Assembly (NCBI GenBank): GCA_001447805.1
Contig: CP013099.1
Coordinates: forward strand, 1,364,001 to 1,428,000
Source of the DNA: Candidatus Tenderia electrophaga
Lineage (GTDB): Bacteria > Pseudomonadota > Gammaproteobacteria > Tenderiales > Tenderiaceae
Reading direction: 5' to 3'
Length of the DNA: 64,000 nt
This document shows positions 16,354 through 22,668 of this stretch, in pieces. Every line of letters begins with the position of its first letter. Positions within the stretch are counted from its first letter, which is position 1. The notes below the pieces were generated by a model, which saw nothing but the letters and a program-made list of their open reading frames with translations, was not told the DNA's origin and searched no databases. A program made the position numbers and the translations under genes.

Positions 16354-16608
16354 TTATGGCGCACGTTTGAATAGCGGCAGGGCGTCCGTGTTGACGCTGC
16401 TGATGGGGACCTGATGAATCACCACATCGGCGCTGGGAACCGCCTCCTTGATCTTGCGCTCCACCTCGTCGGCAATGGCGTAGGCCTTCACCAGGGGCAG
16501 ATTGTCGTCCAGCTCCAGATGCATCTGGATGATCAGTTCGCGCTTGTCCTGCGGCAGTTCATGATCGAGCAGGTCGGTCTTGTAGTGCAGGGCGTCGGCG
16601 CGCGACAA
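16354..16608 (-). pseudogene. Decayed fragment of a FieF-like CDF transporter
   Basis: The 84-residue reading frame matches three separate pieces of the intact FieF-like protein encoded at 21332-22255: ADALHYKTDLL, DHELP-to-LIIQ, and MHLELDD to the C-terminus. Two internal segments are missing, 141 bp and 78 bp compared with the intact gene, both multiples of three, and each missing segment is bounded in the intact copy by a short direct repeat (gagcaggtcg and atctggat). The first 180 or so residues are absent. No ribosome site precedes the TTG at 16608. It most likely is a remnant of a CDF duplication. Confidence 0.85.
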
Positions 16609-16610
16609 GC

Positions 16611-16627
16611 TGCGACATTATGTCGCA
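16611..16627. promoter_or_regulatory. Perfect 17-bp palindromic operator candidate
   Basis: TGCGACATTATGTCGCA is a perfect 8-bp inverted repeat around a single central base, immediately upstream of the candidate -35 element of the receptor operon. Position and symmetry fit a dimeric repressor site. The regulator is not identified in this window; Zur- or Fur-type control would suit a metal-receptor operon, but the sequence is not a textbook box for either. Confidence 0.6.
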
Positions 16628-16692: not shown

Positions 16693-18756
16693 ATGCGCAG
16701 ATTATCCAAACCCACGGTGGCCTTGATCACCCTGGCGCTGGCCCATACCGGTCGCGCCGCCGAGCCTGTCACTCTGGACGAGGTCACCGTGACGGGCACC
16801 CGCGAGGCCCAGGCGATCGCCGAAACCCCCGCCTCGGTGGGTGTGATCATCACCAAGGACATCGATGAGCTGAAGGCCTCCCATCCAAGCGAGATCATGG
16901 GTACGGTGCCCGGCGTCCACGTCAATGTCACCGGCGGAGAGGGCCACATGACCGCCATCCGTCAGCCCATCACCACCGCACCGGTCTATCTGTTTCTGGA
17001 AGACGGCGTGCCGACCCGGTCCACCGGCTTTTTCAATCACAACGCCCTGTACGAGATCAACCTGCCCCAGGCCGGCGGCATCGAGGTGACCAAAGGGCCG
17101 GGCTCCGCCCTCTACGGCAGCGACGCCATCGGCGGTGTGATCAATGTGCTGACCCGCCCTGCGCCGCTGCAGCCGGAGGCGGAGGTGAGCGCGGAGGCGG
17201 GCGGGCATGGCTGGCGGCGGTTGCTGCTCAGCGGCGGCGACAGCGACAGCACGGGCACGGACGGCTATCGCGGCGACCTCAACCTGACCCATACCGACGG
17301 CTGGCGCGACACCACCGATTACGACCGCCAGAGCGCCACCCTGCGCTGGGACCGCTTCCTCGACAGCGGCGCCGCGCTCAAGACCGTCATCAGCGCCGCG
17401 AACATCGACCAGCAGACCGCCGGCACCTCACGCCTATCGAAACAGGATTACCTGCACAACCCCACGCTCAACTACACCCCGGTCTCGTTCCGCGAAGTCG
17501 AGGCCTTGCGTATCTCCACCGCCTACGAAGACGAGACCCAGGACAGCCTGCTCAGCCTCACCCCCTACGTGCGCTACAACCGCATGGAGATCCTGCCTAA
17601 CTGGTCGCTGAGCTACGACCCGCAGCGCTACACCACCGAGAACACCTCGGTCGGCCTGCTGAGCAAGTACCGCCGCGATTTCGCGCCGCGGCGTAGCCGC
17701 ATGATCGTCGGCCTGGATCTGGATTACAGCCCCGGCAGCTACCAGGAAAACGCCATTGACCCGACCCGGGTCGGCGCGATCTACGTCAGCTACACCGAGC
17801 TGGCGCGTACCTATGACTATGACATCAGCTTCACCAGCGTCTCGCCCTATGTGCACCTGGAGACCTCGCCGACAGAGAAACTGCGTCTCCAGGCCGGCCT
17901 GCGTTTCGACTACATGCACTACGACTACGACAACCACCTCGGGGTGCAGAGCAGCGGCGCGCACCGCCGTCCCGCCAGCACCGACGTCGACTTCGATCAT
18001 ATCAGTCCCAAGCTCGGACTGACCTATGCCCTTAGCGAGCGGCTCAATACCTTCGCCGCCTACCGCAACAGCTTTCGCGCGCCCAGCCAGAGCCAGCTGT
18101 TCCGCCAGGGCCAGGCCGAAAACACCGTCGGCCTGAAACCGGTGGATGCGCACAGCTACGAAATCGGCCTGCGCGGCCAGGCCGGGCCGGGCAGTTACGA
18201 GGTGTCGCTGTACTACATGCGCGTCGAGGACGACATCGTCAGTTTCCGCAACACCGTCGACGGCACCCGCGAGACCCAGAACGCCGGCGAAACCCTGCAC
18301 CGCGGCATCGAGATCGGCCTCGAGACCCCGCTCACGGCCAGCGTGCAACTGGACATCGCCTACAGCTATGCCAAGCACAGCTACGAGGAGTGGCGCCCGG
18401 CCACCGGCACCAACTACGGCGGTAATGAGATCAACTCGGCGCCGCGCCAGATCGGCGACGTGCGCCTGAGTTGGCGTCCCGCCCTGCTCAAGGGCGGTCG
18501 CCTCGAACTCAACTGGGAACACCTGGGCGACTACTGGCTCGACGACGAAAACACCCATCGCTACGACGGTCACGACCTCTATCACCTGCGCGCCAACTAC
18601 AAGGTGACCACGCAACTGGAGCTGTTCGGGCGGCTGGAAAACCTCACCGACGAGCGTTACGCCACCGGTGCTTCCTACAGCCAGTTCCGCGGCGAGGAGT
18701 TCGCCCCCGGTCTGCCGCGCACCTTTTATGCCGGTGTCAGCTACCACTGGAGATAA
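16693..18756 (+). CDS. TonB-dependent outer-membrane receptor
   Basis: The 687-residue protein has a signal peptide (cut near residue 23), a TonB box region (TLDEVTVTGTRE), a plug domain with the conserved GGIEVTKGPGSALYGSDAIGGVINV (about residues 127-151), a 22-strand barrel and the C-terminal LPRTFYAGVSYHWR ending. Such receptors import scarce metal chelates, vitamins or metallophores using TonB energy. The substrate is not readable from sequence. The neighbourhood, a secreted Asp-box protein, a thioredoxin-like protein, a dedicated TonB and several metal exporters, points to a metal or metal-complex ligand. GGGAG at about 16682-16686 supports the start. Confidence 0.92.
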   Translation: MRRLSKPTVALITLALAHTGRAAEPVTLDEVTVTGTREAQAIAETPASVGVIITKDIDELKASHPSEIMGTVPGVHVNVTGGEGHMTAIRQPITTAPVYLFLEDGVPTRSTGFFNHNALYEINLPQAGGIEVTKGPGSALYGSDAIGGVINVLTRPAPLQPEAEVSAEAGGHGWRRLLLSGGDSDSTGTDGYRGDLNLTHTDGWRDTTDYDRQSATLRWDRFLDSGAALKTVISAANIDQQTAGTSRLSKQDYLHNPTLNYTPVSFREVEALRISTAYEDETQDSLLSLTPYVRYNRMEILPNWSLSYDPQRYTTENTSVGLLSKYRRDFAPRRSRMIVGLDLDYSPGSYQENAIDPTRVGAIYVSYTELARTYDYDISFTSVSPYVHLETSPTEKLRLQAGLRFDYMHYDYDNHLGVQSSGAHRRPASTDVDFDHISPKLGLTYALSERLNTFAAYRNSFRAPSQSQLFRQGQAENTVGLKPVDAHSYEIGLRGQAGPGSYEVSLYYMRVEDDIVSFRNTVDGTRETQNAGETLHRGIEIGLETPLTASVQLDIAYSYAKHSYEEWRPATGTNYGGNEINSAPRQIGDVRLSWRPALLKGGRLELNWEHLGDYWLDDENTHRYDGHDLYHLRANYKVTTQLELFGRLENLTDERYATGASYSQFRGEEFAPGLPRTFYAGVSYHWR

Positions 18757-18759
18757 ACC

Positions 18760-19983
18760 ATGAAACGCCCCCGCGCGGTATTGTTCGCTGTGATCTTCCT
18801 GCTGGCCGGCCCCGCGCCCGGCCATGCCCAGCCCCACGCCCATGCCGGGCACACACCGGTCGCGGCGGACGCGCCGGTCAGCATCGCCAACGGCCGCGTC
18901 CCCAGCGCCGCCTTCGATGCGCGCGGCCGCCTGTGGCTGGCCTGGGTGCAGAATGATCATGTCTACGTCAACTACTCCGACGACCTGGGCCAACGCTTCA
19001 GCCCGCCGGTGGCGGTGAACCCGGAACCGGAACAGATCCACGACAACGGCGAGGCGCGGCCCAAAGTGGCGCTGGACCGGGACGGCCGGGTCTTCGTCGC
19101 CTACACCCGGAAACTGCCAAAACGCTTCACCGGCAATATCCGTTTCAGCCGTTCGCTTGATGGCGGGCGCAGTTTCAGCCGCCCGCTCACCGTCAACGAC
19201 GACCGCGAGATGATCAGCCACCGCTTCGTCTCCATGGCCGTCGACGCCCGCGGAGGTGTCCATCTCGCCTGGCTGGATGCGCGCGACGCCGTCGCCGCCG
19301 CGGACAGCGGGCGGCCCTACGACGGCTCGGCGCTGTACTACAGCTATTCCGACGACCATGGCGCCGCCTTCCAGCCCAATCGCAAGCTCGCCGACACTAC
19401 TTGTCAGTGCTGCCGCATCGCCCTGGCGCTGGATGGCACTCAGCGGCCGGTGTTTTTCTGGCGCCACATCTTCGCCAATGCCAGCGGCCCGGGCAGCCGC
19501 GACCATGCCCTGTTGCGTCTGGGGACGGACGCGGCACCGCAACGCATCAGTCACGAAAATTGGCGCGTGGAGAGCTGTCCCCACCACGGCCCGGCGCTGG
19601 CCATCGGCGCGGACGGCCGCCGCCACATGGCCTGGTTCAATATTGCGGCGGGCGCTCCGGGGCTCTACTACGCCTACAGCGACGACGGGGGCCGCACGCG
19701 CTCGCCTGTCCATCCCTTCGGCGGCGCCGACAGCCAGGCCCAGCATCCCCATCTGCTCGAACGCGACGGCCGCGTCTATCTGGTATGGAAGGCCTTCGAC
19801 GGCCGCCGGACCACGGTGCAGCTGATGCGCTCCAGTGACGGCGGCGCCAGCTGGGGCGCACCCGAGGCGCTGGCCGCCACCTCCGGCGAATCGGACCATC
19901 CCTTCCTGTTGCAGCACGACGGCCAGGTCTATCTTTCGTGGCACAGTGCCGCCGACGGCTACCGCCTGGTGGCCATCCCATGA
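18760..19983 (+). CDS. Secreted Asp-box (sialidase-fold) beta-propeller protein
   Basis: A signal peptide (cut near residue 24) precedes a roughly 380-residue propeller. Five Asp-box-like turns are visible: SDDLGQRFS, SLDGGRSFS, SDDHGAAFQ, SDDGGRTRS and SSDGGASWG. These turns occur in sialidases but also in many non-enzymatic beta-propellers. The sialidase arginine triad cannot be confirmed, so sialidase activity should not be assumed. An unusual CQCCR cluster at residues 215-219 could bind metal or form disulfides, which fits the thioredoxin-like gene that follows with a 4-bp overlap. His-rich N-terminus (HAHAGH). Confidence 0.75.
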   Translation: MKRPRAVLFAVIFLLAGPAPGHAQPHAHAGHTPVAADAPVSIANGRVPSAAFDARGRLWLAWVQNDHVYVNYSDDLGQRFSPPVAVNPEPEQIHDNGEARPKVALDRDGRVFVAYTRKLPKRFTGNIRFSRSLDGGRSFSRPLTVNDDREMISHRFVSMAVDARGGVHLAWLDARDAVAAADSGRPYDGSALYYSYSDDHGAAFQPNRKLADTTCQCCRIALALDGTQRPVFFWRHIFANASGPGSRDHALLRLGTDAAPQRISHENWRVESCPHHGPALAIGADGRRHMAWFNIAAGAPGLYYAYSDDGGRTRSPVHPFGGADSQAQHPHLLERDGRVYLVWKAFDGRRTTVQLMRSSDGGASWGAPEALAATSGESDHPFLLQHDGQVYLSWHSAADGYRLVAIP

Positions 19984-20462
19984 GGCGGCGGCTGGCCTTG
20001 GTGCTGTTGCTGCTGTTGCCGCCGGTGCTGCTGGCGGCCGAAGTGCGGCCCTTCGTCAGCGGTTCCATGGCCGCGATCACGGCCCGGCAGGCCGACGAAC
20101 CACTGATCGTCAGCTTCTGGTCCATCGACTGTCCGCCCTGTTACAAGGAGCTGGACCTGTGGCGCGCGCTGAGTCGCCGCTATCCGGCCCTCGATCTGGT
20201 GCTGGTCTCCACCGACGCCCCGGCGGCGGGCGCCGAGGTGAACCGGGTGTTGCGGCAGCGCGGTGTAGCGCATCTGGAGTCGTGGCAGTTCGCCATCAGC
20301 GAGGTGCAGCGGCTGCGCTACGAGATCGACAGGCGCTGGTACGGCGAGCTGCCGCGCAGCTATTTCTTTTCCCCCGACGGTGACGTGTCCGCCGTCAGCG
20401 GCGTCATCGACGACGAGCAGGTGGACGCATGGTTGGCGCAGTACTATCCGGCCACCGACTAG
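19980..20462 (+). CDS. Thioredoxin-fold (TlpA-like) exported protein
   Basis: The ATG at 19980 overlaps the previous stop by 4 bp, and gives a 160-residue product with a leucine-rich signal peptide or anchor (RRRLALVLLLLLPPVLLAAE). The thioredoxin active site is CPPC at residues 51-54 in FWSIDCPPCYKELD, and the cis-Pro loop is LPRSYFF near residue 124. The family acts in periplasmic thiol chemistry. Position between the Cys-rich propeller gene and tonB suggests it serves maturation of a partner in this operon, perhaps the CQCCR segment (inference). Confidence 0.85.
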   Translation: MRRRLALVLLLLLPPVLLAAEVRPFVSGSMAAITARQADEPLIVSFWSIDCPPCYKELDLWRALSRRYPALDLVLVSTDAPAAGAEVNRVLRQRGVAHLESWQFAISEVQRLRYEIDRRWYGELPRSYFFSPDGDVSAVSGVIDDEQVDAWLAQYYPATD

Positions 20463-21223
20463 CCGGCCTGCCTGCGCCATTGGCGGCGGGGGTTGCCGGC
20501 GAAGGCTGGGGATTCCCGGCCCGCACGCGGCGCCATTTTGCTTTCGCGCTGGCCGCCGCCATCCTGCTGCACCTGCTCTCCTTCGCCGCCCTGATCGACG
20601 CCGGTCCGGCGGTGGTCGGGCCGCTGTCGCAACCGGCTATCAGCCTCACCCTGGTGACAGCGCCGGCAACGGCGCCCGCCCCGCCGCCCCCGGCCGTCCC
20701 GTCCACGCCACCCGCTGCTCACCCCCCGCCGCCCAGGCCCGCCCCGACACAGCCGGCGCCAACGCCAACGCCGCCCGAACCGGCGGCCAGCGTCGCGCCC
20801 ACCACTCCGGCACCGCCCGCGCCGGTTGCCGCCGTGCCGGCATCTCCGGCACCGTCGGAAGCGGACATTCCCGTCGCCGCCGAGCCCGCCGTGGCCGAGG
20901 CGCCTCCGGCGCAGCCGGTCGCGTCCGCCCAACGCCATACGCCGCCCTCCAGCGAGGTGGCCTATCACCGCAATCCCGATCCGCATTACCCCCGCGCCGC
21001 CCGGCGCCGCGGCATGGAAGGGGTGGTCGAGCTGGCGGTAACGGTGGATCGCGATGGCCTGCCATTGGAGATCCGCATCAGGCAGTCCTCCGGTTTCGAG
21101 GTGCTCGACCGCGAGGCGCAGCGGGCGGTGCGGCAGTGGCGTTTTGAACCGGCGCGGCGCGGCGGCATCGCTGTGACGGGTGAGGTGGTGGTGCCGATAC
21201 GCTTCCGCTTGCAAGCGGGCTAG
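20429..21223 (+). CDS. tonB: TonB energy-transducing protein
   Basis: This 264-residue protein has a short cytoplasmic N-terminus, one transmembrane anchor (FAFALAAAILLHLLSFAALI, about residues 38-57), a long proline/alanine-rich periplasmic spacer, and a C-terminal TonB domain (about residues 175-263) with YHRNPDPHYPRAARRRGMEGVVELAVTV and the RQSSGFEVLDREAQRAVRQWRFEPA block. It overlaps the preceding gene by 34 bp, so it is the last gene of the receptor operon and probably energises that receptor specifically. ExbB and ExbD are not encoded in the window. Confidence 0.9.
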   Translation: MVGAVLSGHRLAGLPAPLAAGVAGEGWGFPARTRRHFAFALAAAILLHLLSFAALIDAGPAVVGPLSQPAISLTLVTAPATAPAPPPPAVPSTPPAAHPPPPRPAPTQPAPTPTPPEPAASVAPTTPAPPAPVAAVPASPAPSEADIPVAAEPAVAEAPPAQPVASAQRHTPPSSEVAYHRNPDPHYPRAARRRGMEGVVELAVTVDRDGLPLEIRIRQSSGFEVLDREAQRAVRQWRFEPARRGGIAVTGEVVVPIRFRLQAG

Positions 21224-21331: not shown

Positions 21332-22255
21332 TCAGGGCAGGCGCTTGAACACCGGCAGCGTGTGCAGGTCGACGCTGCTGACCGGGTCCTGGTGGATCAC
21401 CACGTCGGCGCCGGGGATGGCCTGTTTGATCTTTCTCTCCACCTCGTCGGCGATGGCGTGCGCCTCGATCAGGGGCAGATTGTCGTCCAGCTCCAGGTGC
21501 ATCTGGATGAATTCGGTGCGGCCGGAGAGCCGGGTGCGCAGGTCATGCATGCCCTCCACCTTGGCGTGGTCTTTGGCGATCTGGATAATCAGCTGTCGTT
21601 TCTCGTCCGGCAGTTCGTGGTCGAGCAGGTCGTGGAAAGCGTCGTTGCCGATGCCCCAGGCGCTGTAGAGGACGTAGGCGGCAATGGCCAGGGCGAAGAC
21701 CGGGTCGATGCCCAGCCAGCCCAGTTCCGACAACAGCAGCGCGGCGATGATGGCGCCGTTGGTGAGCAGGTCGGTCTTGTAGTGCAGCGCGTCGGCGCGG
21801 ATGGCTGTGGAGTGGGTGCGCTTGATGACATAGTGCTGGAAGGTCATGAGGATGCCGGTGGCGATGATGGCGAAGACGATCACCCCCAGGCCGATACCCA
21901 CAGCTTCTAAGGGTTTGGGATGCAGTAGCCGGTCCACCGCCTCGATGATCAGGAACACGCCGGAGCCGGCGATGAAGGTCGCCTGGGCCAGGCCGGCAAT
22001 GGATTCGGCCTTGCCGTGGCCGTAGCGGTGTTCGCGGTCGGGCGGCGCCAGGGCGTAGTGCACCGCCAGCAGATTGATCAGCGAGGCCCCGGCATCCATG
22101 AGCGAATCCACCAGCGAGGCCAGTACGCTCACCGAGTTGGTGAGCAGGTAGGCGGCTAGCTTGGCGGCGATGAGAATGGCAGCGGTGACGACTGAGGCAT
22201 AGGTCGCCAGTTTCAGCAGCCGCGAGCTTTCGGCCTGGGTAATGGGTTCGGACAT
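21332..22255 (-). CDS. fieF: Cation diffusion facilitator, FieF-like
   Basis: This is an intact CDF exporter for Zn2+/Fe2+-type cations. Metal-site residues are visible in VDSLMDAGASL (TM2) and ADALHYKTDLLTN (TM5), and the C-terminal cytoplasmic domain runs from about residue 205 (FIQMHLELDDNLPLIEAHAIADEVERKI). I start at the internal Met (MSEPITQAESS, 22255), giving 307 residues as in FieF; an upstream ATG at 22303 adds 16 atypical residues. It is convergent with tonB. A degraded relative of this gene lies at 16354-16608. Confidence 0.9.
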   Translation of the reverse strand: MSEPITQAESSRLLKLATYASVVTAAILIAAKLAAYLLTNSVSVLASLVDSLMDAGASLINLLAVHYALAPPDREHRYGHGKAESIAGLAQATFIAGSGVFLIIEAVDRLLHPKPLEAVGIGLGVIVFAIIATGILMTFQHYVIKRTHSTAIRADALHYKTDLLTNGAIIAALLLSELGWLGIDPVFALAIAAYVLYSAWGIGNDAFHDLLDHELPDEKRQLIIQIAKDHAKVEGMHDLRTRLSGRTEFIQMHLELDDNLPLIEAHAIADEVERKIKQAIPGADVVIHQDPVSSVDLHTLPVFKRLP

Positions 22256-22668
22256 GGGCGGGTTCTTTTGGTTTTTTACTGCCGGGCGAAAATCCGGACT
22301 CATTATAAATGAGTTGAGCGGGGTTCTCGAATTGCGTTTTTCGGCGGGTGTGAGGGGAGGGGGTTTGCGCGCGATGAGTAGATCAAAGGAGCCGCAATCA
22401 ATGACTCTGACCCTGTTGATTCGGGCCCTGTTGATTCGCTGGTGAGCTGGGTATTCCGCTTCACGTCGCTGCTTACACCATCACGCCAAAGATTGGCCCG
22501 TAGCGGGCGATCTTTCAACAGCCTGTCAATCTCGGTAAGCGCCATGACTTCGCTTTTGCGGTGTTGCCTTCCACACAGGCGTACTTAATTTTATAGGCGC
22601 CAGAAAAACCCAGCCGCTTCAGCTTGATAGCGTTTCACAATAAAAGCCAAGCCGGTTAAGCTAGCCGC
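22256..22668. other. Gene-free gap with a REP-like hairpin and a possible gene remnant
   Basis: No supported gene lies here. A degenerate copy of the REP-like hairpin (ATCAATG, loop actctgacc, tgttgat) is at 22397-22420, the same unit found repeatedly in the 30-44 kb island. On the minus strand 22545-22440 reads MALTEIDRLLKDRPLRANLW before running into the hairpin; it may be the beginning of a truncated gene, unidentified. The mrpA promoter should lie in the last 150 bp, but I see no convincing boxes. Confidence 0.5.

Follow-up and report, generated by a model that had tools for sequence, protein, structure and literature searches.

We analysed a 64,000-nucleotide stretch of contig CP013099.1 from Candidatus Tenderia electrophaga (the whole stretch is called the window below) and concentrated on an operon of four genes encoding a TonB-dependent receptor, an Asp-box beta-propeller, a thioredoxin-like protein and a TonB protein (Table 1). 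An initial annotation, made from the sequence alone, had drawn four open reading frames here, and their placements and spacings were confirmed: a 3-bp gap separates the receptor and propeller genes, the propeller and thioredoxin genes share a 4-bp ATGA overlap, and the thioredoxin and TonB genes overlap by 34 bp. Judged by this tight packing, the four genes are one unit. The thioredoxin-like protein is better started at the ATG at 19980 than at the mechanically called GTG at 19938 because its signal peptide begins at 19980. A scan upstream of the operon gave no sigma-70 promoter, and an Rfam search of the window gave no RNA element.

Table 1. The operon and its sequence features, in window positions.
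Feature	Position	Strand	Basis
Putative RegA-family operator of the operon, a perfect 17-bp palindrome, TGCGACATTATGTCGCA	16611..16627	not applicable	
TonB-dependent receptor, own subfamily, 687 aa	16693..18756	+	ORF list, Pfam, NCBIfam
Asp-box beta-propeller, 407 aa, signal peptide, sialidase-like fold, without named family	18760..19983	+	
CQCCR motif, propeller residues 215-219; all three Cys invariant	19402..19416	+	
CPHHG motif, propeller residues 273-277; C, P and G invariant, first His nearly so	19576..19590	+	
Exported thioredoxin-like protein, TlpA/ResA-like, CPPC at 20130-20141	19980..20462	+	
TonB protein: N-terminal membrane segment, Pro-rich linker, TonB_C domain	20429..21223	+	Pfam match TonB_C

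The receptor has the plug and barrel domains of its class (Pfam). It fell under each specific NCBIfam cut-off shown, including those for siderophore, B12, haem, copper (OprC) and PqqU receptors. The earlier claim that the operon departs from the standard siderophore and cobalamin systems is supported. It scored 38.8 bits against the OprC model TIGR01778 (cut-off 472.45) and 136.3 bits against the PqqU model NF041535 (cut-off 1200), and it matched the CrtA structure 9RVQ with 45.8 bits over the plug only (residues 18-208). Assignments as CrtA, OprC or PqqU were rejected on these partial or sub-cut-off matches. Two plug histidines, H85 and H116, are invariant among its relatives, and H436 and H536 in the barrel are nearly so. 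At one locus of the same genus (L009, 9305-11396), two overlapping open reading frames take the place of an intact receptor gene, reflecting a frameshift or an assembly error.

The propeller matched BNR_2 of Pfam with 44.2 bits (cut-off 31.4) and thus has a sialidase-like BNR domain. Proteins of this family are currently annotated as "sialidase family protein", with no assigned function, and no NCBIfam model names the window protein or any of 23 homologues; a known function, which would have spoken against the initial annotation, did not emerge. C215, C217, C218, C273, P274, G277, H289 and R100 are among the residues that do not vary across 24 homologues, and H275, F156, D379 and P381 are nearly invariant. 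An AlphaFold2 model of the protein is confident (mean pLDDT 89.8). In the predicted strand order, R100, SHRF (H154), CQCCR and CPHHG fall on consecutive blades, each at the innermost strand or immediately ahead of it, and QHPH (H329) and SDHP (H380) are placed likewise. Motifs in such positions would meet on one face of the pore, and the secondary structure thus points to a single putative Cys/His metal site on the central pore as the likely arrangement. The His-rich N-terminal tail was rejected as the conserved site, since it holds 0 to 5 His across the homologues. Judged by its strands, the protein more likely has seven blades than the six known from sialidases, a difference that may account for TM-scores no higher than ~0.4-0.6. 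The propeller had been described as secreted, and it does carry a signal peptide; together with the fused thioredoxin of one genome (see below) and lipoprotein-like starts in some homologues, this makes a periplasmic location more likely than release to the outside.

The third protein gave only sub-threshold AhpC-TSA/thioredoxin matches in Pfam and NCBIfam. With a signal peptide and a CxxC motif (here CPPC), it has the makings of a TlpA/ResA-type protein, with domain scores that are weak and below the cut-offs. In 17 homologues of this partner, the CxxC is invariant and is kept together with a W-GE-P block. The TonB gene, earlier called "private", is present and encodes a TonB_C domain, but it adjoins the module in several loci only and is an optional extra. 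Genes of ExbB and ExbD size lie near the module in three loci (L011, L052, L054), where size and order are what identify them.

We then asked how well the gene order is conserved. Of 369 sampled gammaproteobacterial genomes, 21 encode a propeller at 37-62% identity and another 20 gave weaker matches; two additional genomes, from the same genus or family, also encode such a propeller. Matches near or below 30 bits, such as that in L008, were not counted as members. Close homologues also occur outside the typical gammaproteobacteria, in lineages that we label alphaproteobacteria (another class of the phylum, taken as such) and betaproteobacteria (GTDB gammaproteobacteria that resemble them). By hand counts from the locus tables, a TonB receptor gene directly precedes the propeller gene in the same orientation in 20 of the 24 gammaproteobacterial loci with a close propeller (it is divergent in one), and the thioredoxin gene lies directly downstream in 19 of the 21 loci uncut by a contig end. 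The order receptor-propeller-thioredoxin is kept even where propeller identity drops to 20-23% (L014, L065). In L042, propeller and thioredoxin form a single open reading frame of 567 residues, with the thioredoxin domain after the propeller and no second signal peptide. The two proteins therefore share one compartment, which supports their physical cooperation. Thus, as the initial annotation held, this is not a chance grouping: by comparison of some 20 gammaproteobacterial loci and those of the alpha- and betaproteobacteria, the receptor-propeller-thioredoxin core is a widespread bacterial module.

Copper genes adjoin most of the alpha- and betaproteobacterial modules read. Seven of 10 such genomes have a DUF2946 (CruR) gene immediately before the receptor, the match in one of them (G545) being barely above the cut-off. 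Experiments in Bordetella pertussis have established that the DUF2946 protein CruR shuts off the downstream copper-uptake genes when copper is present (PMC9426467). In two loci (L228, L229), the receptor-propeller-thioredoxin core has DUF2946 directly before it and PCuAC directly after it; in L226, YcnI (DUF1775) and a CopC-CopD fusion come after the module, and in L223 CopC-CopD takes the same place. A distantly related propeller, whose motifs read CTCC and CPV, is encoded in a copper cluster on a plasmid of the roseobacter Pseudosulfitobacter, alongside a multicopper oxidase, copper-binding proteins, a plastocyanin-like protein and heavy-metal ATPases. Another locus, L048, has a barrel-TlpA-ATPase set beside the operon, like that of the boxed locus L191 (see below), with a CopA-type ATPase downstream. 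The window genome itself offers three full-length COX1-type matches and two PCuAC genes as copper consumers.

Some 80 bp separate the palindrome from the start of the receptor gene, and in relatives GCGACA-N3-TGYCRC stands at almost this spacing. In a mismatch-counting scan, this operator was found with at most one mismatch at 18 of 24 operon starts, nearly always above the local background; in L042 it sits inside an over-extended start of the reading frame, which brings the total to 19 of 24. Six loci (L041, L050, L053, L055, L056, L057) had not been used to derive the pattern, and for the others the result is partly circular. The inner 15 bp (16612-16626) match exactly the RegR box consensus of Bradyrhizobium, GNGRCRTTNNGNCGC, as quoted in PMC5506826. 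This is the sole such match in the window, where 0.26 are expected.

RegB/RegA-like gene pairs stand beside the operon in five loci (L011, L043, L044, L048, L054). Their kinases carry GGxxNPF, HE(L/M)GTP and a conserved Cys, and their regulators a Fis-type helix; a kinase/regulator pair in L061 was rejected as not of the RegBA type. A RegB-like kinase gene starts less than 400 bp from the box in 15 of 51 boxed loci that were read, which were chosen rather than drawn at random. Rhodobacter RegA binds copper (PMC9147068). We predict with good confidence, from box and gene pairs, that the operon is under RegB/RegA-type control in gammaproteobacteria.

What else carries the box? The zero-mismatch pattern matched 26 times in 19 genomes versus 2 times for a reversed control, and the box was carried by 17 of 21 propeller genomes versus 85 of 348 others among the 369 (Fisher p = 2e-7, uncorrected for phylogeny). 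It precedes PCuAC-SCO1 (L121), CopC-CopD (L172) and an OprC-type receptor that exceeds the OprC cut-off with 622.6 bits (L125), and it lies by divergent NosZ-like and NosR-like genes (L175), the NosZ assignment being backed by propeller domains. In L173, L188 and L191, it stands before Met- or Cys-rich outer-membrane barrels and TlpA-like proteins, joined in L191 by a CopA-like P-type ATPase. Two close relatives of the window receptor (957 bits in L167 and 923 bits in L169) have the same box, and PepSY_TM replaces the propeller and thioredoxin there; this identity was established for L167, and L169 was judged alike by eye. The replacement suggests that the propeller-thioredoxin pair may do a corresponding job.

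Further boxed loci were recorded in the course of this survey. A second exact match in the window genome (L081/L084, C1:3461618 onward) heads genes for a His/Met-rich lipoprotein of 603 aa, a barrel headed by CCGGG and two TlpA-like proteins, and three loci of the same genus (L128, L129, L130) have a similar set plus a small cytochrome. Elsewhere in this genome, a RegA-type box (L079, site 3860, C1:1970859) precedes an exported protein of ~330 aa that reads like a barrel and has no Pfam match. In L158 (G331:C1:2055000-2071000), six boxes fall within ~6 kb by exported proteins without known family, a TlpA-like protein and a DUF3570 protein. Boxed OprC-like receptors are divergent from nqrA-like genes, recognised by eye, in L181 and L186, a possible link of copper uptake to the sodium-pumping quinone reductase.

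Taken together, these comparisons make it very likely that the substrate is copper, which is singled out by the CruR leaders, the PCuAC, SCO1, YcnI and CopCD partners and the shared regulatory box. We consider it probable that the operon as a whole is a copper-acquisition system. The receptor, energised by TonB, would move copper, free or bound to a small ligand, over the outer membrane. The periplasmic propeller would then take the metal, probably as Cu(I), at the Cys/His site of its pore (CxCC, CPH and nearby His), and the thioredoxin-like protein would keep the propeller cysteines reduced and may help to reduce Cu(II) to Cu(I). A propeller acting as a periplasmic Cu(I) acceptor that is kept reduced by thioredoxin is the version that we favour by a small margin. 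Onward, copper would pass through PCuAC, SCO1 and CopCD-type proteins to cuproenzymes such as haem-copper oxidases. Transcription would be set through the palindrome by a RegB/RegA-like two-component system in gammaproteobacteria and by a copper-sensing CruR leader in alpha- and betaproteobacteria.

Several observations weigh against copper import by this route. The window genome has no DUF2946 match above the cut-off. Its RegB/RegA-like pair lies far from the operon (about C1:952850-954730), and the RegB-like kinases score under the curated RegB cut-off (252 of 350 bits for the kinase of the window genome). The box also precedes ccmABC in L126 and, in L124, a DUF4198 gene that has a NikR-like gene nearby; therefore, the regulon is not purely copper, or some matches are due to chance. 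The histidines of the propeller's N-terminal tail are variable, and the best solved relative of the receptor is the pyrroloquinoline quinone (PQQ) transporter PqqU/YncD, at 118 bits over nearly the full length. Finally, deletion of pcuB, which encodes a copper-induced receptor of Bradyrhizobium, is reported to be without phenotype (PMC12617631); therefore, such systems can be redundant.

Could the same anatomy serve another transition metal (Zn, Ni, Fe or Co)? Zinc is also bound by Cys/His sites, a NikR-like gene lies close to the box in G010, and the operon's neighbours in the window are the exporters CzcA, ZitB and FieF, from which the initial annotation had argued its metal setting; G093 likewise has CzcA and ZitB nearby. 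Yet only two other loci have related exporters close to the operon. They are not conserved with it, and reading the identity of the metal from them was rejected. At the operon, we noticed no box resembling those of Zur, Fur or NikR, and it is the copper proteins CruR, PCuAC, SCO1, CopC/CopD, YcnI and the OprC-type receptor that recur with the module or the box. We therefore regard another metal as an unlikely substrate. The initial annotation's broader proposal of metal capture with redox control fares well, given the invariant CxCC and CP(H) of the propeller, the CxxC of the thioredoxin and the natural fusion; it had not singled out copper.

Alternatively, the propeller and thioredoxin may protect thiols or sequester excess copper, in copper defence or envelope redox repair. 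The roseobacter homologue does lie in a cluster that resembles copper resistance, with multicopper oxidase and P-type ATPase, and a CopA-type ATPase follows the operon in L048 and recurs in the boxed locus L191. However, a TonB-dependent receptor with its own TonB means import, CruR leaders switch operons off in copper, which is the opposite of defence, and PCuAC, SCO1 and CopCD-type partners serve copper supply. We give this explanation the same low probability as uptake of another metal. It is very improbable that the system imports an organic compound, such as a PQQ-like cofactor or a glycan, and uses the propeller as binding protein or glycosidase: the kinship to PqqU/YncD and the sialidase-like fold with Asp boxes are offset by a PqqU score of 136 of the 1200 bits needed, by CxCC and CP(H) among the invariant propeller residues and by the lack of any glycan genes noticed nearby, and the copper neighbourhood would be left unexplained. 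A copper-ligand complex as the receptor substrate is possible and fits copper acquisition.

Copper import over the outer membrane of Gram-negative bacteria is poorly known and few receptors are established; if our reading is true, the module is another route, with a new receptor subfamily, a function for an unnamed Cys/His propeller family and a copper regulon under RegB/RegA-like control. RegB/RegA is known as a redox sensor, and its copper binding was shown recently. More tentatively, and with less than even confidence, the propeller-thioredoxin pair might form a new class that accepts copper in the periplasm and reduces Cu(II) with its thiols, taking on by disulfide chemistry the role that the membrane protein PepSY_TM has in CrtA-type systems, within an unrecognised copper regulon of a dedicated RegB/RegA branch.

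The operon is also flanked by fieF sequences. An intact fieF lies directly downstream (21332-22303, minus strand), and a decayed second copy, a mosaic of C-terminal pieces with ~82% DNA identity, lies directly upstream (16354-16608, minus strand).

In function, the module comes closest to the CruR-CrtA-CrpH system of Bordetella pertussis (PMC12914433, PMC13038864, PMC9426467). That system is a copper-regulated operon of a TonB receptor with a redox-type partner facing the periplasm, sometimes with TonB/ExbBD and PCuAC/ScoI, and the alpha- and betaproteobacterial versions of our module share its CruR leader. In CrtA loci, PepSY_TM, the usual partner of CrtA and a proposed copper reductase, lies directly downstream in >75%, and a CruR (DUF2946) leader heads >40% of the operons. 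The window receptor has propeller and thioredoxin in that place, and control in gammaproteobacteria is apparently of the RegA type. We found no mention of a propeller or sialidase in text searches of the CrtA, CrpH and CruR papers, and our literature searches turned up no propeller or sialidase that had been linked with copper and TonB receptors. OprC/NosA (TIGR01778) likewise stands for copper import over the outer membrane, and an OprC-type receptor in G007 has the same box, whereas the window receptor is far under the OprC cut-off. TccA of Caulobacter vibrioides (PMC12617631) and PcuB of the Bradyrhizobium pcuABCDE operon are TonB-dependent receptors for the copper supply of cytochrome oxidases, and the alphaproteobacterial modules, like these systems, carry YcnI and CopC-CopD; compared by description rather than sequence, and as far as the available part of the source goes, TccA and PcuB have no described propeller or thioredoxin partner. 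The propeller shares Asp-box repeats and a related fold with bacterial sialidases and differs in its predicted seventh blade, its low TM-scores and its conserved Cys/His motifs. The kinase/regulator pairs resemble RegB/RegA (PrrBA, RegSR, ActSR) in the GGxxNPF, HELGTP and Cys of the kinase, the Fis-type helix of the regulator and the RegR-consensus box. Unlike those, the kinases score below the RegB cut-off and many of the pairs adjoin copper genes, which suggests a branch of the RegB/RegA family dedicated to copper.

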